Of a DNA stretch of 42,728 bases, positions 21,004 to 42,728 are shown piece after piece. The stretch is taken from positions 1 through 42,728 of IMG/VR virus record IMGVR_UViG_3300017613_000620; one strand, 5' to 3'. A model generated the notes under the pieces. That model was given only the letters and a program-made list of their open reading frames with translations, was not told the DNA's origin and searched no databases. Each line of letters opens with the position of its first letter. The stretch's first letter is position 1. Both the position numbers and the translations under genes were made by a program. Source of the stretch: a virus.

Positions 21004-21990
21004 ATGTCCGGTCAACTGTGGGTAACAAATTCCCTCGGTGGCTACATGAGTTCCCAGAAACTTTCCAAGTACCTTAGATATGCGTTGCAACCAACGGTGA
21101 AATTCCGTCAATTCTGCGATGCCAAGGGTGCTTTTGGAAAACATAAGGGCGAATTATACACCTACAATGTGTATAACGATGTAGCTACCCAGGGTAATAC
21201 GTTGGTGGAAACCGACACCATGCCCGAAACCAATTTCACGATTACGCAGGGTACTATCAGCGTAACGGAAGCCGGAAATGCAGTTCCCTACACCGGCAAA
21301 CTGGATGATCTTTCCGAACATCCCGTGAAATCAATTATTAACAAGGCGCTCAAAAACGATGCCAAGAAATTCTTTGACTGTGTTTCTCACGCTGAGTTCA
21401 ATAAAACACCGTTGAGAGTTCAGGCCAGCGATGGAACCGATACGGCGGTGGTGACGTTGCTTACGGCCAGCACTCACACGGATACGAACAATGTTGCAAT
21501 GCGTAAAGGACACGTTTCGGCAGTCGTGGATACGATGAAAGAGCGCAATATTCCACCTTATAGAAACGAGGACTATGTTTGTATCGGGTGGCCCAGCACG
21601 TTCCGAACGCTTAAAAACGATCTGGAATCCGTGTATCAGTACGTTACGGAAGGATACAAGCAAATCTACAACGGCGAAATCGGTAAATACGAGAAATGCC
21701 GTTTTGTGGAGCAAACGCAAATTCCGAAGGGTGGTGCGAACGACAGTACCACTTGGAACGCTTATTCCAACACTTCCGATGCTTGGGATAATGCGAAGTC
21801 CGATTGGGCTTTCTTCTTGGGTCAGGACGGTGTTACGGAAGCGATTGCCGTTCCAGAGGAAATGCGTGGTAAACTTCCGTCCGATTACGGCAGAAGCAAG
21901 GGTGTCGCCTGGTATTACTTGGGCGGCTTTGGCATTATCCATACAACCGCAGCGCAAGCCCGTATCGTGAAATGGGATAGCGCATCATAA
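21004..21990 (+). CDS. Major capsid protein (N4-gp56-like, HK97-type fold)
   Basis: The 328-residue product matches the N4-gp56-type capsid family pattern. It starts GQLWVTNSLGGYMSSQKLSK, followed by LRYALQPTVKFRQFCD, TQGNTLVETDTMPETNF and TVTEAGN-like strands, then GKLDDLSEHPVKSI. A PSDYGRSKGVAWYYLGG segment is near the C-terminus. It should form the icosahedral shell. AAGGAGATAAACTT precedes the ATG, the best ribosome binding site in the window, as expected for the most abundant virion protein. Confidence 0.85.
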   Translation: MSGQLWVTNSLGGYMSSQKLSKYLRYALQPTVKFRQFCDAKGAFGKHKGELYTYNVYNDVATQGNTLVETDTMPETNFTITQGTISVTEAGNAVPYTGKLDDLSEHPVKSIINKALKNDAKKFFDCVSHAEFNKTPLRVQASDGTDTAVVTLLTASTHTDTNNVAMRKGHVSAVVDTMKERNIPPYRNEDYVCIGWPSTFRTLKNDLESVYQYVTEGYKQIYNGEIGKYEKCRFVEQTQIPKGGANDSTTWNAYSNTSDAWDNAKSDWAFFLGQDGVTEAIAVPEEMRGKLPSDYGRSKGVAWYYLGGFGIIHTTAAQARIVKWDSAS

Positions 21991-22008: not shown

Positions 22009-22491
22009 GTGAGTAACGCTTATGATGATGCAAAATACGGCGTAATTGAACGCCGTTGGTTCGGATTGACAAAAAAATGTGGCGGCTCTGCGGCTGGGGG
22101 TTATACGTTCGGTACGACCGATGCAACCACCGCTGACCATGTTACGCGGTTTTATCCGAAAGGACCGATTAAACTTCTGAAGTTCGGCCATTTGACTCTG
22201 GCAACGATTGCCGGAGGTGGAACCGGCATGGACGAAGTTCCGGCCCGTGTGCTTGTGAACGGGTCTACCGAAACAAGTGCTGATCTGGCTATGGTGGGTG
22301 CAGCTCAGTATGACATTGCCTCCGTGGTGGGTTTTACCGCTGCCCAGGTGGATGCTGGGTCATACATTGGTATTCGCACCGGAACTCCCCAAACTGCTGA
22401 TGGCACCGATGCCAATACTGCAACGACTACCGGCACGGTAGCGTTCTTTATTGATTTCGTGCGTGTTTACAGCAGCAAGTGGGACGAATAG
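22009..22491 (+). CDS. Head-associated protein, possible decoration protein
   Basis: The 160-residue product starts at GTG 22009 after GGGAGGTGG. It is rich in Gly, Ala and Thr, with strand-like repeats (AGGGTGMDEVPARVLVNG, then ADLAMVGAAQYDIAS) and low charge, consistent with a beta-sandwich. Immediate placement after the major capsid gene suggests a head decoration or stabilising protein. No catalytic motif is visible. It could equally be an uncharacterised structural protein. Confidence 0.6.
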   Translation: MSNAYDDAKYGVIERRWFGLTKKCGGSAAGGYTFGTTDATTADHVTRFYPKGPIKLLKFGHLTLATIAGGGTGMDEVPARVLVNGSTETSADLAMVGAAQYDIASVVGFTAAQVDAGSYIGIRTGTPQTADGTDANTATTTGTVAFFIDFVRVYSSKWDE

Positions 22492-22499
22492 GCACATAA

Positions 22500-22530
22500 T
22501 CTTGTGGGGGCTTAAAACACCCCCACAAGA
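22500..22530. other. Stable stem-loop without T-run at the entry to the glycan cassette
   Basis: TCTTGTGGGGG (22500-22510) pairs perfectly with CCCCCACAAGA (22520-22530) around a 9-base loop. No T-run follows on either strand. It lies between the head gene stop and the ribosome binding site of the first glycosyltransferase, so it may be an RNA processing, stability or attenuation site that separates high head-gene expression from the enzymes downstream. Confidence 0.6.
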
Positions 22531-22552: not shown

Positions 22553-23629
22553 TTGAACATTGTTTTTGTGTCGGCACACGCCTGCATTAGAGTGCAGAAA
22601 ATGGCGTTGCCGCTTACACAGGTAGGGCATAAGGTTCATTTAATTGCAAAAAAAATACCGAGTTTTTACGAATGTTACGACACGTTCTCAATTTATTCGG
22701 ATGCAGGGCAATTAATAAATGTTATTAAAAGATTTGAAAAAGTCGGGGATATTGACATTTATCATTGCCATAATGAACCGTCCTGGTTTGTCACGATCCT
22801 TAAAGAAAGAACCGGAGTGCCGGTGGTACTGGACGTTCACGACACCTATTTGACACGCTTGACACCGGCTGAATGTCGCTCTTTGAAAAATCATGGTTTT
22901 AATCCATTCAGGGTTTCAAACGAAGAAAGACTTAATTTCCGGTTAGCCGATGGACTTGTTTTCGTTTCCGATTCGGTCAGGGATGTGACCATGAAAGAGT
23001 TTGAATTAAATCAACCATCCCTTGTTTTACCCAGCTACGTTCCTGATTTCTTATACAAATACAATATGGGGCGATACTTGGGCGGTTTAGTGTACGAAGG
23101 CAAGGTGACGCTGCCGGGTGAAATAGATGGCAAGAATGAACGAATGTGGGGATTCTCGTATTGCGATTATACCAGAGTGGCGAAGGATTGCACGAACGCT
23201 GGCATTGATTTTCACCTTTACCCTGGAACTAACGAAGCTAAAAAACACTATAATGGAATCGCCACGGTGCATCCCGGATACCCGTATTTAGAGCTTTTAA
23301 CGTGTTTAACACGGCATGATTGGGGTCTGGTCGGCAATATGGAGAAAAGCTATCAATGGGAAATGACCTTAACCAATAAAATGTTCGAGTATTTAGCGTG
23401 TGGGTTGCCGGTTGTGGCAATAAATGCAAGCGAATCAAGCAAATTCATTGAGAAACACGATGTCGGCATCACGGTTGAATCAATGAGGGAATTAAAAGCC
23501 CGATGGGGAGAGCACAGAAAGAAACAGGAGAATGTGATTAAGTTCAGACAGAAGTTCATCATGGATAATCACATCGACAGTTTGCTGGAATTATATAAAA
23601 AATTAATTTGTCTGAGGGGGGCGGCATGA
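22553..23629 (+). CDS. Glycosyltransferase, GT4-like (first)
   Basis: TTG 22553 follows GGAGGGGAGGGGGA and gives 358 residues; an in-frame extension to 22451 crosses the upstream hairpin and is not favoured. The N-terminus NIVFVSAHACIRVQKMA and VGHKVHLIAKK form the usual Rossmann start. A DIDIYHCHNEPSWFV segment and GVPVVLDVHDTYLTRL match acceptor-side motifs of GT4. The C-terminal KMFEYLACGLPVVAIN with SSKFIEKHDVGI is the sugar-nucleotide-binding signature. It should transfer a sugar from a nucleotide donor with retaining chemistry. Donor and acceptor are unknown. Confidence 0.82.
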   Translation: MNIVFVSAHACIRVQKMALPLTQVGHKVHLIAKKIPSFYECYDTFSIYSDAGQLINVIKRFEKVGDIDIYHCHNEPSWFVTILKERTGVPVVLDVHDTYLTRLTPAECRSLKNHGFNPFRVSNEERLNFRLADGLVFVSDSVRDVTMKEFELNQPSLVLPSYVPDFLYKYNMGRYLGGLVYEGKVTLPGEIDGKNERMWGFSYCDYTRVAKDCTNAGIDFHLYPGTNEAKKHYNGIATVHPGYPYLELLTCLTRHDWGLVGNMEKSYQWEMTLTNKMFEYLACGLPVVAINASESSKFIEKHDVGITVESMRELKARWGEHRKKQENVIKFRQKFIMDNHIDSLLELYKKLICLRGAA

Positions 23630-24225
23630 TTAATCAGGAAATGCAGGGGTATTGGGATGAGATCGCTAAAATACAGGCAAAGCATTTTAGTGAAAACATT
23701 TGGAAAAAAGCCAAGATATTAGGCAAAATACTGGATGCTGATAATTTCTTTAATAAAAGAGTGCTTGAAATCGGAGTGGGAGTACCGCTTGTGTCAGCGG
23801 CGATACAACTGATTTTACTAAATAATTGGCATTGGGCCGGGACGGATGTATCACCTATTTATGTTGATTATGCCCGAAAACGCATGGGGTGCGAAGTGGT
23901 TCACGCAGATGTGAAAACACTACCGGAAACCGAGGACGGGTTTGATCGAATATTCTGCTTTGATAGTTTGGAACACGTTCCACCCGATGACAGAGAGGAA
24001 GGATTTGAACGCATTGGCAAGGTTTTAGCTCCGCACGGTAGAATTTATGTTCATTTACCGTGGGAGGAATCACACCACACCGATTTTGATTATGAGTTCG
24101 ATCTTCACACTTTGGCGCTTCTGGTGGATAAAACCGAAACGGAATTGATAAAATACGAACGGTACGAGTGTGAAACCATAAACGATAAAATAAAAAAATA
24201 CAAGTGGGTAATTCTTGAGCGTTAG
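23626..24225 (+). CDS. SAM-dependent class I methyltransferase
   Basis: The 199-residue product starts at ATG 23626, overlapping the glycosyltransferase stop by four bases. Motif I is VLEIGVGVPLV at residues 46-56. TDVSPIYVDYARKRM follows as the SAM ribose-binding strand, then CEVVHADVKTLP and FCFDSLEHVPPDDREE, as in UbiE/small-molecule methyltransferases. A product of this kind could cap or O-methylate a glycan, stopping chain growth. The substrate is unknown; clustering with glycosyltransferases points to a sugar. Confidence 0.82.
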   Translation: MINQEMQGYWDEIAKIQAKHFSENIWKKAKILGKILDADNFFNKRVLEIGVGVPLVSAAIQLILLNNWHWAGTDVSPIYVDYARKRMGCEVVHADVKTLPETEDGFDRIFCFDSLEHVPPDDREEGFERIGKVLAPHGRIYVHLPWEESHHTDFDYEFDLHTLALLVDKTETELIKYERYECETINDKIKKYKWVILER

Positions 24226-25225
24226 CCATTACGATAATATTGAGAAAGCAAAGGAGCTGGTTCAATTCGGAGCCAGCCCAAGGCGATATGTTTGCGAAGT
24301 TCATCGGGAAGTCTGGGATTTAATTGAAAAGAATATCGAATCCGAGCAGAACAAGCAACAAGCCCTTGATTTATTAGCAGAAGCGTACTGGTTAAGTAAA
24401 AGAATGTCCGACAGGCTAAAGGAATTAAAAGAAACGGCTCAGTTCGATGGTAACGATGCGCTCACCGATGCGGATTTCAGAAGCAGGATTCAGCAAAGGG
24501 CTGAACGTGTAAATGCTTTAAAAACCTATAAATCGGTTCAGATTCAAACGATTGATTTCTGCAACCGCTCATGCGCGTGGTGTCCCAACAAGGATTTGAA
24601 TAAATCACCCGAAACTAAAATGAGTCAGAAAACACTAAGCCGAATCCTACGCCAGTTGCTTGATTATAATTACACGGGTGCCGTTCATCCTTATTTAATG
24701 GCCGAACCGCTGGAAGATAATCGTATATTGGCGATCCTGAAAGAAATAAAAGAATATCTACCGGATGCACGTGTCAAAATAGCCACGAACGGAGATAAAC
24801 TTAAATACTCCGAGGATGTTCAAGGCTTGCTTGATGCCGGTTGTGATTCGATTCATGTCAACCATTACGATGATCTTAACGAATACAAGTTGCGGGACAA
24901 GGATTTTGAAGGGGTGACTCATTTCGGAAGGGGTTATCTTAAACCAACTTTTTTTAATCGAGCCGGGAAGGTGAAATTCATACCATCCAAAATACAAACG
25001 AAAGGATGCTCATATTTTTTAAACAAGCTGTATTTCAGGCATAACGGGGATTTGATTCTATGTTGTTCCGACTACGATTACGAAGTGGTGTTCGGAAATA
25101 TCAATGAGCAATCCCTGCCTAATATTTTAGCGGGGGAATTGTATCGGAAATATTATTATGCGCACAAAAACGGAGAGGCTAAAACGGGGGGCTTGAAATT
25201 ATGTCAAGATTGCAACCATATTTAA
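24215..25225 (+). CDS. Radical SAM enzyme with SPASM-like C-terminus
   Basis: The 336-residue product starts at TTG 24215, overlapping the methyltransferase stop by 11 bases. An unusual N-terminal helical segment of about 100 residues precedes TIDFCNRSCAWCPN. There C116, C120 and C123 form the CX3CX2C site binding the radical [4Fe-4S] cluster. The barrel continues with MAEPLEDNRILAI and IATNGDKL. The C-terminus has C265, the pair C283-C284, and C330-x2-C333, which fits an auxiliary cluster domain (SPASM type). Likely chemistry is radical modification of a peptide or sugar. The substrate cannot be inferred. Confidence 0.82.
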   Translation: MSVSHYDNIEKAKELVQFGASPRRYVCEVHREVWDLIEKNIESEQNKQQALDLLAEAYWLSKRMSDRLKELKETAQFDGNDALTDADFRSRIQQRAERVNALKTYKSVQIQTIDFCNRSCAWCPNKDLNKSPETKMSQKTLSRILRQLLDYNYTGAVHPYLMAEPLEDNRILAILKEIKEYLPDARVKIATNGDKLKYSEDVQGLLDAGCDSIHVNHYDDLNEYKLRDKDFEGVTHFGRGYLKPTFFNRAGKVKFIPSKIQTKGCSYFLNKLYFRHNGDLILCCSDYDYEVVFGNINEQSLPNILAGELYRKYYYAHKNGEAKTGGLKLCQDCNHI

Positions 25226-25233
25226 GGGTTCAA

Positions 25234-26112
25234 ATGGTGACACAGGAACCGTTTCAATGGGTGGAAGGATTTAAAAATATATTACAAGGCTATGATTTAA
25301 CCGTAAATTCTAATATTAACCTGAAATTGCCGACCGATATTTACTTGCTTATGTGGGCGAATCAGGAAGCCAAGGAGTTCATAAACCGTTACAGGGGTGA
25401 TGCTAAAATCATTCTATGGGTTCGCAGATACGAGTATTATCAATCATGGCTGTACGAGATAAATTTCAACAAGGTTTCGGCGGTTATATTCGTGAACGAT
25501 TATTTAGCCGAGGGTTTTGAAAAACAAACAGGCGTAAAAACCCATGTGATTTACAATTCGGTTGATTTAAACAAATGGACACTCGTTGAAAAACTCAAAT
25601 CGAAAAACATCGGCATGGTGGGATGGATAAATCAGAAAAAAAACTTCCCTCTAGCAATACAGATTTTAAGCAAATTGCCCAAACATGAACTCCATATTGC
25701 CGGAGGGGTTCAGGACTCAGCCACAATGGATTATATCTTCAACCTGGCAGCGGATTTAAAAATCACGCTGGAACGATTAAATTTTCACGGGCGCATACCG
25801 CATCATAAAATGGATGCCTGGCTGAACAATATTGGTGTTTTATTGTCATGCTCTATTTCCGAGGGTTGCCCGAATAACGTCCTTGAAGCAATGGCAAAGG
25901 GTATTCCGACAATAATTCATAATTGGCCCGGTGCGAAGGATATATTTCCTGAAGAATGTATATTTAACACGGTTGACGAAGCCTGTGAACTAATAACAAC
26001 CTATGGAACAACAAGAAAACTTTTCGCTTTAGACGATTTCGGTATCGGTAATTATGAACGAATTGCTGATATTATACAACAAATAACCGGAAACCAAAAG
26101 GAAGCAGCATGA
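25234..26112 (+). CDS. Glycosyltransferase, GT4-like (second)
   Basis: ATG 25234, five bases after AAGGG, is preferred over the in-frame ATG at 25201, which lies inside the radical SAM gene. The product is 292 residues. The first half is divergent (LPTDIYLLMWANQEA, IILWVRRYEYYQSWLY). VIYNSVDLNKW and KNIGMVGWINQKKNFPLA then begin the GT-B C-terminal domain. SISEGCPNNVLEAMAKGIP carries the EX7E pair (E210 and E218 from this start) that binds the donor nucleotide sugar. This is the clearest GT4 signature in the window. It overlaps the next gene by four bases. Confidence 0.85.
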   Translation: MVTQEPFQWVEGFKNILQGYDLTVNSNINLKLPTDIYLLMWANQEAKEFINRYRGDAKIILWVRRYEYYQSWLYEINFNKVSAVIFVNDYLAEGFEKQTGVKTHVIYNSVDLNKWTLVEKLKSKNIGMVGWINQKKNFPLAIQILSKLPKHELHIAGGVQDSATMDYIFNLAADLKITLERLNFHGRIPHHKMDAWLNNIGVLLSCSISEGCPNNVLEAMAKGIPTIIHNWPGAKDIFPEECIFNTVDEACELITTYGTTRKLFALDDFGIGNYERIADIIQQITGNQKEAA

Positions 26113-26507
26113 TTGAATTTGATCCTAAAAAACCCTATGGGGAAGTGTTCGGACCTGGTGGCGATTGCAAATACATTCAGGAAGGTAGAAAATACGATGG
26201 CGGCGGTTTTTTTGTCGGGTATCAGAAAGGCCGGGAACCAATACCGGAACCGGAGCCACCCGAACCCGTGAAGAAAATCGTTGAGGAACCCGAACCAAGA
26301 GAATCGGAGGTTTGCGAGTATTGTGGCAAGCGTTTTAAGAAAGTCACAAGCCATTTAAGATGGTGCAAGGTGAAAAAGGCAAAGGAGAAGGGGGATGGCA
26401 GAAACGCTGGGAAGCCTGGTGGACAAACTAAGCGTGATGAACCTAAAACTCTGGCATCAAGAGGAAATCAAACATCGTACATCATTGGAAGACTCGACGA
26501 TAGCTGA
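26109..26507 (+). CDS. Small zinc-finger protein with proline/glutamate hinge
   Basis: The 132-residue product starts with YGEVFGPGGDCKYIQEGRKY, a short globular part. A Pro-Glu-rich linker (residues 43-65) leads to CEYCGKRFKKVTSHLRWC, a C-x2-C-x9-H-x3-C finger (C69, C72, H82, C86). A basic tail follows. The last 113 bases overlap the DUF4254-like gene in another frame, so the tail sequence may be unconstrained. Binding to nucleic acid or to another virion protein is plausible. It is an odd passenger inside a glycan enzyme cluster. Confidence 0.6.
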   Translation: MIEFDPKKPYGEVFGPGGDCKYIQEGRKYDGGGFFVGYQKGREPIPEPEPPEPVKKIVEEPEPRESEVCEYCGKRFKKVTSHLRWCKVKKAKEKGDGRNAGKPGGQTKRDEPKTLASRGNQTSYIIGRLDDS

Positions 26508-26634
26508 TGCCGCTCGTAAAATCGGGGTGCTGAATAAACAGCGCAACGACTTGATTCAGGAGATAGACGAAATGGTGGTGAATATCGGCAACGGAAAACC
26601 ACCCAAAGTTTACTATCAGGTGAAAATGTACTGA
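26395..26634 (+). CDS. DUF4254-like small helical protein
   Basis: The 79-residue product reads ETLGSLVDKLSVMNLKLWHQ and later KIGVLNKQRNDLIQEIDEM. This matches my recollection of DUF4254 family proteins, which are often encoded next to glycosyltransferases. ATG 26395 follows GGAGAAGGGGG. It is all helical. Known relatives have no established activity; a partner or scaffold for the flanking glycan enzymes is a reasonable inference. Confidence 0.68.
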   Translation: MAETLGSLVDKLSVMNLKLWHQEEIKHRTSLEDSTIADAARKIGVLNKQRNDLIQEIDEMVVNIGNGKPPKVYYQVKMY

Positions 26635-28010
26635 TGATTAAACCAGAAGCTATCAGATACGAGCTTGTTCCATTCACACGCGGGCGTGGCCTTCAGGTTA
26701 ATATCCCGGAGGAACAGCCGAAAATGTGGCCCCATTTCACGGGTTGTGACGAATCGGATTTCCGGTATTTTCACAAGTCACGCTGGGATTACGTTATTTT
26801 GCACGAATTAAGAGATGAATCCCTGTTTCTGAAAGCATGGCAAAGAATAAGACAGGGTGGGCATTTCATTTTAATCGGTGAGAATCGAGCGCCTCAGATG
26901 ATGAATATCAAGGGATGGGATTTTCTCTTATCGGAAAAATCAGAAGATGATTTCATTCATGTTTACAAGAAACGCTCAGACAAGCAACAACTCATATTTT
27001 ACAATGATGAACGACCACCGAAAACGGTTTTGGTTATCAGGTATGGTGCCGTTGGAGATATGATTCAAATAAGCAGTATATTTCCGCCTTTGAAAAAACA
27101 AGGATACCACATCACCGTTCTATGTCAACCTAAAAGCGCATCCATTATAAAAGATGATCCCAACGTGGACGATATATTCATTACCGACAAAGATCAGGTG
27201 CCGAACCAGCAACTTGATTATCATTGGGAATTTCTGAAAACCAAGTACGATAAAATCATAAACCTGTCCGAATCCGTTGAGGGCACGATTCTTGCGCTTC
27301 CCGGCAGAATGAACAATAAATGGCCTTATAGCGCCAGACAGAAATACATGAGCATAAATTATCTTGAATTTACGCACGACTTGGCAGAATTACCATATCC
27401 GCCGTTCAACACGAAATTCTATCCCGACAAGAAAGAAATTCAATGGTGCGTTCAAAAAAGGAAGCAAATCGGGGCTGGACCCATTATTCATTGGGTTTTG
27501 TCCGGTTCATCTATTCACAAGACATGGCCCTACCTGGATCAGATCATAGCACGGTTATTAGTTAAATATCCCGAAGCAAGTATCGTTCTCACGGGTGACG
27601 AAATGTGCAAAATGCTTCAATCCGGTTGGGAAAACGAGAAAAGAGTCCATCTCTGGGCGGGAGAGAAAATCAGAAACACGCTCACATTCGCCGTTACACA
27701 GGCAGATATCGTTATCGGGCCTGAAACGGGTGTTATAAACGCCGTGGGGATGGAACTCACTCCCACAATAATATTCTTAAGCCACAGCAGCAGGGAAAAC
27801 GTCAGCAAGCATTGGGTAAACACAATCAGCTTGGAACCCGATAAAAAAGATTGTCCGTGTTTTCCTTGTCACCGATTGCACTATACATGGCATTTCTGCA
27901 ATCAGGATAGCGTAACCGGCGCAGCATTGTGTCAGGCCCGAATCAACGTGAATACCGTTGAGGAAGCGATTGAATTAGCAATGAGTAAAACCACACAAAA
28001 GGCGGCATAG
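26634..28010 (+). CDS. GT9-like glycosyltransferase with methyltransferase-like N-terminal domain
   Basis: The 458-residue product has two parts. Residues 1 to about 115 include WDYVILHELRDESLFLKAWQ and IRQGGHFILIGENR, which look like the C-terminal half of a class I methyltransferase without the SAM-binding motif I. From residue 132, VLVIRYGAVGDMIQISSIF begins a GT9 (heptosyltransferase) fold. PIIHWVLSGSSIHKTWPYLD, ASIVLTGDE and VIGPETGVINAVG follow as in ADP-heptose enzymes. A Cys-rich region (CPCFPCHRLHYTWHFC) near the C-terminus may bind metal. Its natural relatives act on lipopolysaccharide cores; the phage substrate is unknown. Confidence 0.8.
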   Translation: MIKPEAIRYELVPFTRGRGLQVNIPEEQPKMWPHFTGCDESDFRYFHKSRWDYVILHELRDESLFLKAWQRIRQGGHFILIGENRAPQMMNIKGWDFLLSEKSEDDFIHVYKKRSDKQQLIFYNDERPPKTVLVIRYGAVGDMIQISSIFPPLKKQGYHITVLCQPKSASIIKDDPNVDDIFITDKDQVPNQQLDYHWEFLKTKYDKIINLSESVEGTILALPGRMNNKWPYSARQKYMSINYLEFTHDLAELPYPPFNTKFYPDKKEIQWCVQKRKQIGAGPIIHWVLSGSSIHKTWPYLDQIIARLLVKYPEASIVLTGDEMCKMLQSGWENEKRVHLWAGEKIRNTLTFAVTQADIVIGPETGVINAVGMELTPTIIFLSHSSRENVSKHWVNTISLEPDKKDCPCFPCHRLHYTWHFCNQDSVTGAALCQARINVNTVEEAIELAMSKTTQKAA

Positions 28011-28011
28011 C

Positions 28012-28710
28012 ATGGCTTTACGAACAATAACCGGAAATGAATTAATAAAAGCGAGTTTAAGGGTTTTGGGCGTTCACGATATTCACACGACACCCACCGA
28101 CGATGAAATGCAAAATGCGCTCGATGCCTTTATCTGGATGCTGGAACAATTAGCCGGTCCACCCGATAGAACCGATATTGGTATAAAACCGTGGATACAG
28201 GCGATAGCGACCTTAACGCTTTCAGCTAAAGCCAGTTTCGATATAAAAGCCAGTGGGGGTGATTTAGACCTTGAAGTGCCGGAAGGTATCATCACGGCCA
28301 CACGCAGGGACACGGACAGCAACGATAATATCCTGATACCGATGACGCTTGAGGATTACAATGCCATATCCAATAAGGGTCAAACGGGAACACCCGGCAG
28401 ATATTATTACGAACGAGAAAAAGACAACGGATTATTCAAGCTGGATTATATACCATCCGATACTACCGACACGGTTATTCTGAATTATCGCAGACGCATA
28501 GAATCGCCAACACTTGCAGGCAATCTTGATATGCCCGAAGTATCATATCGGATGCTGAAATATAACCTTGCGATAGACCTGGCACCCGAATACGGCAAAG
28601 AACCCAGCTCCGTTCTCATGGGGTTGGCGCTTCAAAGCAGGCGCAAGTTATCACGGCATTATCCTGAAATATCGTCAACTGAAATGTATTTTCAACCAGG
28701 CAGGGATTAA
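28012..28710 (+). CDS. P22 gp4-like tail adaptor / head completion protein
   Basis: The 232-residue product begins TITGNELIKASLRVLGVHD, followed by DEMQNALDAFIWMLEQL, the signature of P22 gp4-type tail accessory proteins. RRDTDSNDNILIPMTLEDY and a YRMLKYNLAIDLAPEYG segment also fit. It docks on the portal ring and starts neck assembly. It starts two bases after the GT9 stop with a weak ribosome binding site, so it may be coupled to the glycan cassette. It ends in overlap with the next ATG. Confidence 0.85.
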   Translation: MALRTITGNELIKASLRVLGVHDIHTTPTDDEMQNALDAFIWMLEQLAGPPDRTDIGIKPWIQAIATLTLSAKASFDIKASGGDLDLEVPEGIITATRRDTDSNDNILIPMTLEDYNAISNKGQTGTPGRYYYEREKDNGLFKLDYIPSDTTDTVILNYRRRIESPTLAGNLDMPEVSYRMLKYNLAIDLAPEYGKEPSSVLMGLALQSRRKLSRHYPEISSTEMYFQPGRD

Positions 28711-30227
28711 TGAGAGTACCATTTACGATAGGATATAGCGAGGGTAGGGCGAAAAACAGGGCAAGCGGCAGGCTTGTGAATATGTTTCTGGAAAAAGGCC
28801 CCCCTGGAGATGAGGGCAAGATTTTTCTTTCCGCCTGCCCCGGCTTGAAATTCTGGGCCGACACCGGCACCGGCAGGGAAATAAGAGGCATATATCGTTC
28901 ATCCCCCACCCGACCCAAAGCCGACACCCCAGAGCTTCTCTACGTTGTTTCGCACGATAAGCTATACCAGTATGAGGCCGACAAGACAAAGACCGAAATA
29001 GGGACGCTCAAGACACTCTCAGGGCGTGTATCAATGGCCGATAACGGCGGCGAATTAATGATCGTGGACGGGCCTAACGGATACATCTATAACTGGAACT
29101 CAGAGGAATTTAAACGCATTAAGGACAGGGATTTTCCAGGTGGTAGAAAGGTTATTTATCAGGACGGTTATTTCATCGTGTCACCGACTGATACAGGTCA
29201 AATGAACGTGTCCACGCTTTATGACGGGACTTCATGGGATGCCCTGGATTTTGCGTCCGCGGAAGGTAATCCCGACAACACCATGTCGATTGAAACCGAT
29301 CATCGTGAATTATGGAATTTTGGGGAACGCTCCACAAGTGTTTGGATAAACACGGGCGCGGCTGATTTCCCGTTTGAACGAATACAGGGATCGTTTATCG
29401 AAAAAGGATGCGGTGCTAGAGACTCGGTTGCTAAAATAGACAATGGCGTTTTATGGCTCACGCATGAAAGACAGGTGGCAAGAGCAGTTGGATACTCCCC
29501 TCAGATTGTCAGTACACGCCAAATGGATTATGAAATCGCTAATTACGGTACAACCAGCGATGCTTTTGCTTTTGCATACACGTTCGAGGGCCACCCTTGG
29601 TATCAACTCACGTTTCCGTCCGATGGTAAAACGTGGGTACTGGATATGGCGACTACGCTTTGGCATCAAAGATCATCGTGGACGGATGCGCACCCCGATC
29701 AGCAATTCAGGCATCGTGCTAACTGCTACACTCTTTTTGACAATAAACATATCGTGGGGGATTATCGAAACGGCCTGATTTACGAGCTGTTATCCACGCA
29801 TTATGCCGATTACAGGCGACCCGTTCTAAAAGAATTTACAATCAATATTCCCTCAGACGGTATAAAAAGAATCGTTCATAAATCGCTTGAACTTGAAATG
29901 GAATACGGCGAAGGCGCTTACGGTGATTACATGACCGATACCGAGGGCAAATACGTTCTCGACACCGATCATAACTTTGTGGTGGTAGCGGATAATGAAA
30001 CCGAAACAAGTCCGAGGGTGTATGCTCTTGTGGATTATTCAAACGATGGTTGGTCGTGGCAAGGCGAAAGAATGGTGAAAATCGGGCAACTTGGGGATTA
30101 TTTATTCAGAGCACCAATGTATAAATTAGGTACTTCACGTCAAAGATCATACCGTGTGAGGTGTAGTGACCCCGTAGACCTGGCATTAATCGGCGCTCAT
30201 GTTGAGGGAGATATTGAACGTGGTTAA
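28710..30227 (+). CDS. P22 gp10-like packaged-DNA stabilisation protein
   Basis: The 505-residue product starts VPFTIGYSEGRAKNRASGRL and VNMFLEKGPPG. It then has repeated beta segments such as MIVDGPNGYIYNW, DGTSWDALDFASAEGNPDN and HRELWNFGERSTSVW. GVLWLTHERQVARAVGYSPQ is very typical of the phage stabilisation family represented by P22 gp10. It forms the hub of the tail machine below gp4 and helps retain packaged DNA. Length is close to the usual for the family. It overlaps the next gene start by eight bases. Confidence 0.85.
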   Translation: MRVPFTIGYSEGRAKNRASGRLVNMFLEKGPPGDEGKIFLSACPGLKFWADTGTGREIRGIYRSSPTRPKADTPELLYVVSHDKLYQYEADKTKTEIGTLKTLSGRVSMADNGGELMIVDGPNGYIYNWNSEEFKRIKDRDFPGGRKVIYQDGYFIVSPTDTGQMNVSTLYDGTSWDALDFASAEGNPDNTMSIETDHRELWNFGERSTSVWINTGAADFPFERIQGSFIEKGCGARDSVAKIDNGVLWLTHERQVARAVGYSPQIVSTRQMDYEIANYGTTSDAFAFAYTFEGHPWYQLTFPSDGKTWVLDMATTLWHQRSSWTDAHPDQQFRHRANCYTLFDNKHIVGDYRNGLIYELLSTHYADYRRPVLKEFTINIPSDGIKRIVHKSLELEMEYGEGAYGDYMTDTEGKYVLDTDHNFVVVADNETETSPRVYALVDYSNDGWSWQGERMVKIGQLGDYLFRAPMYKLGTSRQRSYRVRCSDPVDLALIGAHVEGDIERG

Positions 30228-37981: not shown

Positions 37982-40900
37982 ATGAAAAAGCTATTAATTA
38001 CAACCTTATTGGTTTCATTACTAACCATTGGTGTAGCTTCCGCCAGCTTCATTAATTACACCGAAAATGAAAGTCCTGCCGATGGCAGTTATATATGGCT
38101 GATAGAGGGTGGCGAGGATTACAAGGTTTCGGTGGCTAATATGCGGGGGTCAAGCTCCGGTTCAATGACTTCCGTTGAAGATGGTGATTCTCAGGTCGGG
38201 GGTTCAGATATCGTCACCCTTGATTTCGATGGGACTGCGTTTGCTATTACCGAAGACCCCGATACAGAAATCAACATTGATATTGCCGATAGCGGCATTG
38301 ACTCCCCTCATTATGCAGATAGCTCAATAGATGAAGAACATCTCGCCTCAGACGTAATTTCTGGACAGGATGAAGTCACAAGCGCCGATGCTGATTATCT
38401 TCTGCTTTGGGATGCCACAGATTCGACCTTGAAGCGAGTAGACGCAGGAGAGTTCAGGGCAGCAGGGGCCGGAACCGTTGATACGACCGGAACCGTAAAT
38501 GCTGATGAAATTGCAGTATTTAGTGATTCAGACACCTTAAAAGCATTGACCGAGGCGGAGTTCAAATCTGCTTATAGCATAGCTGATTTTTCTGGACCAG
38601 GGAGTGCGACCGACAATGCAGTTGTCCGGTTTGACGGTACTGGTGGAAAAACTGGACAAGGTTCCAGCGTTATTATAGATGATTCTGACAATGTAACTGG
38701 TTTAGGGGATGTCACTTTAGCAACAGGAAAGAATCTAACTCTTGGCACTACCCAATGGGATAATGGATCGGATAAGATTGACGGTGCCGCTATCGAGGAT
38801 GCTGGAATAGCGGCCTTGCAATTAGGTGCTGATTCTGTTTCAGCAAGTGAACTAAATGCAACCGGTGTTGAATCGGAATTGGAAGGGGTGCTTGACCTTC
38901 AGGATATGCAGGGGGCTGTTACGGATGCCCAGGTGCCAGCAGATATAGACATAACAACGAATACCATTATCACCGGAAATGCTGGAATTACTGCAAAGCA
39001 TGGAGCTACGGGCGCAGGATTTATTGAGCTTTACGAAGATTCGGATGATGGCACAAATAAAATAACAATTCAAACTCAGGCAATGGCGGGCGATTTAACT
39101 TATACGCTGCCAGCAACGGACGGAACCTCTGCCCAAGTTTTACACACGGATGGAAATGGAGTCCTAACATGGGATTCAGACGATGGTGCTGGTGGTGGTG
39201 CGCCTACTGATGCTACTTATATTACTCAAACCCTAAATGGAACCTTGTCCAATGAGCAAGCATTATCTGAATCATCTAGCGGAATTATGCGCTCTGCTAC
39301 CACGACAGGGGTTGTAACAATCCTAACCGATTCAAGCGGTCTTAATGATAATATTAGTGATAATACGGGTTCGGGTGCTTTGGTGTTCGGTACTGCACCC
39401 ACATTTACAACCTCTATCACGATGGGGTCTGCCGCATTAAATGAGGCCGAATTAGAAATAATAGACGGTGCAACCTTAACTACCACTCAATTAGAATATC
39501 TCAACGCCGCAACCGGAACTACCGGAACGGCTTCAACGAATGTGGTTTTCTCCACATCCCCAACCCTTGTTACACCTACTCTGGGGGCAGCGACCGCTAC
39601 CACACTTGATACCGGCTACGGTGCTAATGAGCTTTACGATATGAATCAGCACGTCCAGACAACGGATGCGGTGACGTTCTTGACCATTGATACGGGTTAT
39701 GGTGCAAACGAGCTTTTTGATATGGACCAACATCTTTTGGAAGCGTCAGACGTAACCTTTGATGATGTGGTGGTAAGCGGAACCGGAACGGGTCTGAAAG
39801 TCGGAAACGGAACGCCGGATCAAACGATGGACGGAGAGGATGCTTATGTAGAGGGAACTCTTGAAGTCGATGGTCAGGCATATTTTGATGGCGGCATAAC
39901 AATGGCGGCAGTTGAAGACCCATTTTTTAAATTTGATGCAAGTGATGCCCAAGACACCGATTGGTGGATTGGCACCAACGCCGATGCGGGGGCAAGTTCA
40001 GACGACAACTTTGAATTTAGAACCAATGCCACGGCTGGGTCAAACGTCATGGCGTACATTGAACCCGATACAGGGGATTTCGTTGCCAACGGGTCTATTT
40101 TTATCGCAGAGCAAGCCGAAGCCTCTGATGATAAATCAAACTACGGACAGCTTTGGGTAAATACGGCGTCACCAATAGAATTGTGGTGGACGGACGATGC
40201 CGGAACCGACACCCAATTAGGGTTATCCGGTAATACCCTCTGGGATGCAATCGCTAATCCAGGTGGTGATGGCAGTATAGCCTTTTCTGGATATGAGCAA
40301 GTAATTACGTCCACCTTGGATGAAGCCGACCATGTGATGTTCAAGCTGGATCATACCGATGCAGCGGTTGCCGCCGCAACGACTTTATTACAAATAGATT
40401 CGGTGGACGATGGCGAAAGTAATTTAACATATTTCAAAATTGTGGATGATTCACTTGGTACTCCCAACACGGTTTTCAGCATCGGTGCAGACGGTGCTTT
40501 GACCAGCGAGGGTAGTATTACAACCACGGCCAATGGCATTACCCTTGGCGATACATCCGCTGGTGATCCTGTAATTACTTTTGATTCAGGGAATGACGGT
40601 ACGATTACCTGGGAAGAAGATGGACAGGATTTTGAAGTGGCTGGTGATTTAGAAGTGGCTGGCAGGGTTTCAGCCTTATTAGCTACCGAGCAATTCAGAC
40701 TGAGCTATGATGCCGCAAATTACCTTACGGCTGTTTTGTTAGCCGATGGTCATACGACCTTTACGACGGTTGATCCTGATGGTGCGGAGGCAGACATTAA
40801 CTTTGCCCCTGATGGAAATGTGGGAATCAAAACCGCCGCCCCGTCAACCGCCTTGGATGTTACGGGTACGGTAACAGCCACGGCCTTTGCAGGACCGATA

Positions 40901-42728
40901 ACCGGCGAAGTGACAGGTAATGCAGCTACGGTAACAAATGGTGTTACCGCAACGGCGGCTATAACAGATCATGCCGTAGTCCGTGGTCATGGCGGAGCAA
41001 AGATTACTCAATCTTCTGGTGTTATCATAGATGATTCTAATAATGTAACAGGGGTTGCACAACTTACAGCAACAGGCATTATTTATGCAGGAGAGGAATT
41101 TTATTCCACCCATGATTTCCCAGGGATTATATTTAGAGATTCGGATTTTTCTGATACACAAGTGGCAAAAATATTCGGACAGGCGGTTGATATTAATAAC
41201 GGTGATTTATATCTGCAAGCAGAGCGAGATGGTGGTCTTGTTAGTGCGCTTGTGTTCGATGAATCTGAGGCTCGATGGGAGATGTTAAATAATGATGGCT
41301 TAATGTTTGGGTCTGCTGGTGTTGAGCTTAGACCCGATAGTGACGGAGCTATAACATTTCTTGGTCTGGGTGAGGGTGCTGATGAGGATTTAACCTTTAA
41401 TTTTGATGATGTTGAAAACGAAGTCGGTGTTAGTAGTAGTACTGGTGTAACCAATATAGATTTTGGAGCGATTGCCTTGGAATCAAGTGGTGGTTTTACT
41501 GGAAATGTAAGTGGCACCGCCGCAACGGTGACAGGAGCGACACAGGCATCAATCACCACGGCAGCAAACCTGACAACGGTTGGTGCGCTGGCTGCCGGTT
41601 CGTTGGCCGCAGGATTCACAGACGTTCCGGTGGCGCAGGGTGGAACAGGAGCAAGTACTTTGGCAGATGGTGGCCTTGTTATCGGTAATGCGGCAAGTGC
41701 AGTTGAGGTCGTTGCAGCCGGTGCGACAACTGAAATACTCGTAGGTGGTGGGGCAAGTACGGCACCTGTCTGGACAACCGCACAGGGTTCCGGCGCACCC
41801 GTTAGGGCTACTTCTCCAACCTTAACGACTCCGAACATTGGAGCTGCAACCGGTACGGGTCTTGATGCTTCTGGAACCGTAAGCGCGAATCTATTCGCCC
41901 CTGATGCCGCCGATGGTGCGGATATTGGTTCTGCCACTCTTGAGTTCTCTGATATATATTTAGCTGCTGGGTCGGTTATCTACGGAGAGAACGACCAAGC
42001 AAATACAATGACCAGTTCCGCAACCGCTTGGACTTTTTCTGGTGATGTTGGTGTAGGTGATGACGTACTCTTGGCAAACGGTGCGGTTGTTGGCATTACA
42101 GGCAACGAGGTAATAACATTTAATGCTGCCGGTTCAATCAATGTAACTGGTGCCACAATGGACGTTGACGGTGCTTTTACTGCCACCTCTGTAACAGCGG
42201 ATGCCGCCGTGGTTGCAACGACAGAGGTACAGGTTGGCTCATCGAACGCAGACCCGTCGGCTAATGCAGGGGCTTTACGACACGATTCAACAGTTAGCAA
42301 CTTTACCAACGGCGCCTTAACGTACTATAACGGAGCGGCAATAAAGCAAGTTGTTGATATGACAACTGCCACAGCTTCGGCCTGTACGGACGATCAGGTG
42401 GTTGCTTACGATGCTGATGCAGACCTCTGGTATTGTAAAGCAGATTCAACCGGCAGCGCATTGGGTTCTAATCTAACATCAAGCACAAATGATATTGTTT
42501 CGGATAACAACTCAATCGAATTAGAAAGTAATAGCGAGGATATTGATTTTGAGTTTACATCAAATACCGTAACCTTAACCTCAGACACCGGAGTTGATAC
42601 TTTCGATTTCGGCACGATAAATCTTGCCACGGATGCGCTCGATCTTAGTAGCGGAAGTATCACAAATCTTGCGGTTGGTGGCTTACCTGATAATGTTATT
42701 GATAATGGTACAATGGCCGATGATGCAA
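37982..42728 (+). CDS. Giant repeat-rich fibre-like protein with N-terminal signal peptide, truncated at window end
   Basis: The frame from ATG 37982 stays open to the window edge, more than 1,580 residues, partial at the 3' end. The N-terminus KKLLITTLLVSLLTIGVASA is a Sec-type signal peptide with cleavage after ASA (residues 19-21). The body is Thr/Gly/Asp-rich beta repeat sequence: a tandem unit with DTGYGANEL (39605-39685 and 39686-39766), two widely separated copies of an AVVR...VIIDDS.NVTG block (near 38618 and 40973), and PVAQGGTGASTL near 41627, common in phage fibre-type proteins. It is probably an adhesin or fibre, secreted or surface exposed. Confidence 0.72.
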   Translation, partial: MKKLLITTLLVSLLTIGVASASFINYTENESPADGSYIWLIEGGEDYKVSVANMRGSSSGSMTSVEDGDSQVGGSDIVTLDFDGTAFAITEDPDTEINIDIADSGIDSPHYADSSIDEEHLASDVISGQDEVTSADADYLLLWDATDSTLKRVDAGEFRAAGAGTVDTTGTVNADEIAVFSDSDTLKALTEAEFKSAYSIADFSGPGSATDNAVVRFDGTGGKTGQGSSVIIDDSDNVTGLGDVTLATGKNLTLGTTQWDNGSDKIDGAAIEDAGIAALQLGADSVSASELNATGVESELEGVLDLQDMQGAVTDAQVPADIDITTNTIITGNAGITAKHGATGAGFIELYEDSDDGTNKITIQTQAMAGDLTYTLPATDGTSAQVLHTDGNGVLTWDSDDGAGGGAPTDATYITQTLNGTLSNEQALSESSSGIMRSATTTGVVTILTDSSGLNDNISDNTGSGALVFGTAPTFTTSITMGSAALNEAELEIIDGATLTTTQLEYLNAATGTTGTASTNVVFSTSPTLVTPTLGAATATTLDTGYGANELYDMNQHVQTTDAVTFLTIDTGYGANELFDMDQHLLEASDVTFDDVVVSGTGTGLKVGNGTPDQTMDGEDAYVEGTLEVDGQAYFDGGITMAAVEDPFFKFDASDAQDTDWWIGTNADAGASSDDNFEFRTNATAGSNVMAYIEPDTGDFVANGSIFIAEQAEASDDKSNYGQLWVNTASPIELWWTDDAGTDTQLGLSGNTLWDAIANPGGDGSIAFSGYEQVITSTLDEADHVMFKLDHTDAAVAAATTLLQIDSVDDGESNLTYFKIVDDSLGTPNTVFSIGADGALTSEGSITTTANGITLGDTSAGDPVITFDSGNDGTITWEEDGQDFEVAGDLEVAGRVSALLATEQFRLSYDAANYLTAVLLADGHTTFTTVDPDGAEADINFAPDGNVGIKTAAPSTALDVTGTVTATAFAGPITGEVTGNAATVTNGVTATAAITDHAVVRGHGGAKITQSSGVIIDDSNNVTGVAQLTATGIIYAGEEFYSTHDFPGIIFRDSDFSDTQVAKIFGQAVDINNGDLYLQAERDGGLVSALVFDESEARWEMLNNDGLMFGSAGVELRPDSDGAITFLGLGEGADEDLTFNFDDVENEVGVSSSTGVTNIDFGAIALESSGGFTGNVSGTAATVTGATQASITTAANLTTVGALAAGSLAAGFTDVPVAQGGTGASTLADGGLVIGNAASAVEVVAAGATTEILVGGGASTAPVWTTAQGSGAPVRATSPTLTTPNIGAATGTGLDASGTVSANLFAPDAADGADIGSATLEFSDIYLAAGSVIYGENDQANTMTSSATAWTFSGDVGVGDDVLLANGAVVGITGNEVITFNAAGSINVTGATMDVDGAFTATSVTADAAVVATTEVQVGSSNADPSANAGALRHDSTVSNFTNGALTYYNGAAIKQVVDMTTATASACTDDQVVAYDADADLWYCKADSTGSALGSNLTSSTNDIVSDNNSIELESNSEDIDFEFTSNTVTLTSDTGVDTFDFGTINLATDALDLSSGSITNLAVGGLPDNVIDNGTMADDA

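Follow-up and report, generated by a model that had tools for sequence, protein, structure and literature searches.

Glycosylation of capsid and tail proteins by phage-encoded glycosyltransferases is established in mycobacteriophages (PMC12363180), and virion glycosylation is so far known in a few of these phages. The locus described here resembles the systems of Che8 (gp110), Corndog (gp38) and Myrna in that the glycosyltransferases are phage encoded and a glycan on virion proteins has been proposed (PMC12363180). In contrast to those systems, it is a multienzyme cassette, with a GT9 core, a methyltransferase and a radical SAM enzyme, located between the capsid and adaptor genes of a podovirus clade, and here the virion glycan is a prediction from the genes. 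Phage virion glycosylation is known, while the head-operon cassette and a clade-wide GT9 enzyme together with a GT4 enzyme tied to one decoration protein type are new; no description of such an arrangement was found in the open-licence papers searched. Cultured relatives include the Xuquatrovirus phages (PTXU04, Pondi and Bas95) and related Vibrio podoviruses, which have related major capsid proteins and the same head gene order, including an RPYG gene. However, these phages contain no glycosyltransferase between the major capsid protein and adaptor genes, which indicates that the trait is dispensable at the level of the clade.

Gene content of the cassette

The window, meaning the whole stretch of DNA analyzed, is a 42,728-base virus contig from a short-tailed phage (IMG/VR record IMGVR_UViG_3300017613_000620), and all genes of the head region discussed here lie on its + strand. 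The gene for the N4-gp56-like major capsid protein (MCP; 21004..21990; PF13252, E 1e-6; phrog_1357, E 5e-20) is followed by that for a decoration-like protein, termed type A (22009..22491), which belongs to a 29-member family that always has the glycosyltransferase GT4a after it and is the probable GT4a acceptor. The cassette itself (22553-28010) consists of seven co-oriented, mostly overlapping ORFs. Downstream of it are a P22 gp4/Ad3-like head-tail adaptor (28012..28710), which matches phrog_12985 strongly (E 2e-19) and phrog_637 (Ad3) weakly (E 0.0016), and the head closure protein Hc3 (28710..30227; phrog_578, E 4e-104). An earlier note, made by reading the sequence, had placed seven genes between the decoration gene and the gp4-like adaptor, and all seven were recovered as + strand ORFs.

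Pfam profiles also matched the GT4-like, methyltransferase and radical SAM/SPASM identities proposed in that note. GT4a (22553..23629; PF13439, E 2e-10) starts at a TTG codon downstream of a GGAGG-type ribosome site. The SAM-dependent methyltransferase (23608..24225; PF13649, E 2e-14) carries the VLEIGVG motif listed in the note, and in the radical SAM/SPASM enzyme (24215..25225; PF04055, E 4e-9; SPASM PF13186, E 8e-12) the CX3CX2C motif, also listed, reads CNRSCAWC. The EX7E motif, likewise listed, is present in the second GT4 enzyme, GT4b (SEGCPNNVLE; 25201..26112; PF00534, E 5e-16), but in GT4a the spacing is EX8E. Elsewhere in the window, a long open frame (37982-42727) of at least 1582 residues runs past the contig end.

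Two small ORFs follow GT4b. The one at 26109..26507, recognized by the RPYG profile, has a C2HC zinc-finger-like tail and had been counted as part of the cassette. The ORF is indeed present, but isolates lacking glycosyltransferases also have its N-terminal domain, and its candidacy as a glycan-cassette enzyme was rejected for this reason. The RPYG profile is found at 86 of 137 GT9 loci and, at the corresponding place, in these cultured isolates, and the ORF is probably a head-module gene rather than a sugar enzyme. The adjacent ORF (26395..26634; PF14063, E 2e-13) matches DUF4254, as had been suggested, but only its C-terminal half is present, spanning positions 74-138 of the 144-position profile; a full-length form is found in a related locus (L120). 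The window DUF4254 is possibly a decayed gene and, given also the degraded-looking methyltransferase domain of the GT9 protein described below, the window copy of the cassette may be partly inactive. The DUF4254 ORF shares 113 bases with the ORF before it.

Recurrence beside capsid genes and pairing of GT4a with type A

Whether the gene order recurs beside capsid genes in related contigs had been raised as a check on the earlier reading. The order was found in hundreds of them, using profiles built from MCP- and GT9-seeded loci, and also in prophage-like regions of bacterial genomes, among them those of the isolates Paraburkholderia sp. C35 (L201), P. rhynchosiae WSM 3937 (L202) and Pseudothauera rhizosphaerae (L204). 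The GT9-seeded search yielded at least 575 IMG/VR contigs with a gene for the GT9 protein, and 563 MCP relatives were identified in IMG/VR by the MCP-seeded search. Among the GT9-seeded viral loci, 63 of 65 have a co-oriented MCP gene upstream, and 52 of 64 have the adaptor or Hc3 gene downstream, with a median gap of 0; the MCP gene is likewise upstream in 25 of 26 bacterial (prophage-like) GT9 loci. Recurrence in hundreds of contigs indicates that the arrangement is not due to chance. The idea of virion modification had been set against the prospect that homologues always reside in host polysaccharide loci; instead, the GT9 relatives are nearly always located by phage capsid genes.

The protein encoded after the MCP is of several types (A, B, C and unassigned). 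Among 161 non-redundant loci, GT4a accompanies decoration type A in each of the 29 that carry it and is missing from all 132 others; GT4a was found in 30 viral loci. The type A loci were mostly found by GT4a seeding, and the pairing obtained from other seeds holds in 3/3 MCP-seeded and 7/7 decoration-seeded loci, two sets that overlap. Type A is scattered on the MCP tree, with six changes, at least four of which are forced by starred branches (at least three when long branches are omitted). The independent pairs on this tree agree in four of four cases (p 0.125), too few for significance. Because the decoration gene and GT4a are adjacent, co-transfer by linkage could by itself be the source of the pairing. 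Two relatives of GT4a occur without type A, both within structural modules that contain other head proteins: one (L114:8986-10029) is downstream of a portal gene and of a small ORF that looks rich in beta structure, and the other (L116:6788-7840) is near an HK97-type head gene.

The AlphaFold model of type A (pLDDT 82) is beta-rich and gave weak matches to jelly-roll/TNF-like folds, and the decoration alignment had no match among solved structures. Types A and B are distant homologues that occupy the same position (hhalign probability 81%). In PTXU04, peptide mass fingerprinting placed gp11 and gp12, which are encoded directly after the MCP, in the virion (PMC6563267). Comparison of gp12 and its relatives with type A revealed no detectable homology, and thus the argument that type A is a virion protein is positional. 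One locus (L108:8120-8977) has a tandem pair of type A decoration genes upstream of GT4a.

The GT9 protein and putative tailoring chemistry

The last gene of the cassette (26634..28010) encodes a GT9-fold glycosyltransferase with a degenerate N-terminal methyltransferase domain, as assigned by family alignment, AlphaFold and Foldseek. The window protein alone has no match to PF01075 or any other Pfam family, but PF01075 is recognized in 9 of 30 relatives, and 23 of 30 family members match a methyltransferase family; the family alignment shows that this N-terminal domain, kept by most relatives, is shortened in the window copy. The best Foldseek matches of the AlphaFold model (pLDDT 89.7) are GT9 structures with the GT-B fold (3tov, E 1e-12; 1psw, E 4e-12; WaaC, E 4e-9). 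The structural matches bear out the earlier assignment of a GT9-like enzyme. The GT9 domain is conserved in position and residues throughout the clade. In L011:11494-13386, the RPYG domain, methyltransferase and GT9 are fused in a single ORF. Searches of 50,697 phage records by tblastn returned no match for the window GT9 or GT4a, and the GT9 protein of L199 matched phage records via its methyltransferase part only.

The GT-B fold and best structural matches relate the phage protein to the LPS heptosyltransferases WaaC and WaaF, and a C-terminal cysteine cluster is common to it and several host GT9s. The phage protein differs from WaaC and WaaF in its methyltransferase fusion, its head-operon site and its motif: where D(T/S)GxxH is usual in host GT9s, 134 of 143 phage copies have ETGxx(N/S), the window copy having ETGxxN, as compared with host copies taken from those bacterial genomes in which the prophage-like loci reside. 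This replacement makes ADP-heptose an unsafe guess for the donor. Thus, the proposal of LPS-type sugars, made on the strength of GT9 ancestry, was not supported, and heptose is doubtful as the GT9 sugar. The fold also resembles that of the BAHT protein heptosyltransferases, of which TibC has four C-terminal cysteines (PMC4358343), and four C-terminal cysteines are conserved in the phage GT9. However, several ordinary host GT9s carry similar clusters, so the cysteines are uninformative regarding the acceptor, and a TibC-like iron finger was dropped as a sign of a protein acceptor.

In type A loci, the cassettes encode methyltransferases, hexapeptide transferases, Gfo/Idh/MocA oxidoreductases, PIG-L, GT2, sulfotransferase, cupin and DUF4254 proteins, a gene content that fits tailoring of a sugar. 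The suggestion of a more complex modification is supported by these additions in relatives, which include the PIG-L deacetylase, hexapeptide acyltransferase, Gfo/Idh/MocA oxidoreductase, cupin and sulfotransferase. One locus (L018:10179-14687) has seven extra genes between the methyltransferase gene and GT9, including PIG-L, two hexapeptide transferases, Gfo/Idh/MocA, a sulfotransferase and a cupin. No Pfam match to a GtrABC-type membrane flippase or membrane glycosyltransferase was found in the cassette.

Probable virion glycosylation and alternative explanations

Taken from gene content and position, the cassette enzymes probably glycosylate virion surface proteins, with the decoration protein the most likely target of GT4a. 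The earlier proposal of virion modification is strengthened by the capsid-side position and by the tie between GT4a and type A, whereas the target itself, a virion protein and specifically type A, is what we infer from them. As soluble cytoplasmic proteins, the GT4 and GT9 enzymes would use nucleotide sugars to build a short glycan on newly made proteins of the capsid surface, either before the head assembles or while it does so. In the order of reactions that we envisage, GT4a would begin or lengthen the glycan of the type A protein, whose gene lies immediately upstream; additional sugars would come from GT4b and the GT9 enzyme, and tailoring of a sugar would fall to the methyltransferase and the radical SAM/SPASM enzyme. 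A more tentative extension, to which we give somewhat less than even weight, is a modular coat in which each decoration type has its own glycosyltransferase and tailoring genes, swapped as a unit, alongside a methyltransferase-GT9 protein conserved clade-wide. If virion glycosylation is correct, it would be a widespread trait, given that hundreds of uncultured podoviruses, as well as prophage-like regions in sequenced bacterial isolates, have a glycosyltransferase fixed in the head operon, and the tie between GT4a and type A provides a named candidate enzyme-acceptor pair that is directly testable.

The main rival to virion glycosylation is modification of the host envelope late in infection, whereby host LPS or another surface glycan would be altered, for example to counter sticking of virions to debris or to effect phage exclusion. 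The LPS core of Gram-negative hosts is built by GT9 and GT4 enzymes, and the bacterial contigs that contain the GT9 gene are mostly Gram-negative. Moreover, prophage GtrABS systems change the O-antigen (PMC11990801). We nonetheless regard this explanation as unlikely: the cassette has a fixed position in the late head operon, a hydropathy scan detected no clear membrane segments in its proteins, and GT4a tracks the decoration protein type, whereas action at the host surface would predict no tie to a capsid protein. Less likely still is that the capsid-adaptor gap is an insertion-tolerant site that collects sugar genes as hitchhiking cargo, without a common virion target. The highly variable gene content between MCP and adaptor and the decay of DUF4254 and the methyltransferase domain in the window copy would suit such a site, but the clade-wide retention of the GT9 domain, in place and in residues, is unlike cargo, as is the pairing of GT4a with a single decoration type. 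Phage glycosyltransferases can also modify DNA, and glycosylation of the phage DNA by the cassette enzymes would be a form of hypermodification. This is very improbable here, as the larger contig genes that were annotated include one for a DNA methyltransferase and none for an enzyme of base hydroxymethylation or hypermodification, and the cassette is in the head operon, outside the replication region.

A hairpin after the decoration gene may hold enzyme levels under structural-protein levels. A perfect, GC-rich hairpin of 11 pairs was read on the + strand between the decoration gene and GT4a (22500..22530). It is a possible attenuator or processing site, and this hairpin and those of other type A loci would fit two expression levels. 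A strong hairpin is present here in most type A loci (24/29 at z -2 or lower versus letter-shuffled sequence), strong hairpins after the portal and scaffold genes being found in a minority, and in 13 of the 29 type A loci a GC stem is followed by TTTT.
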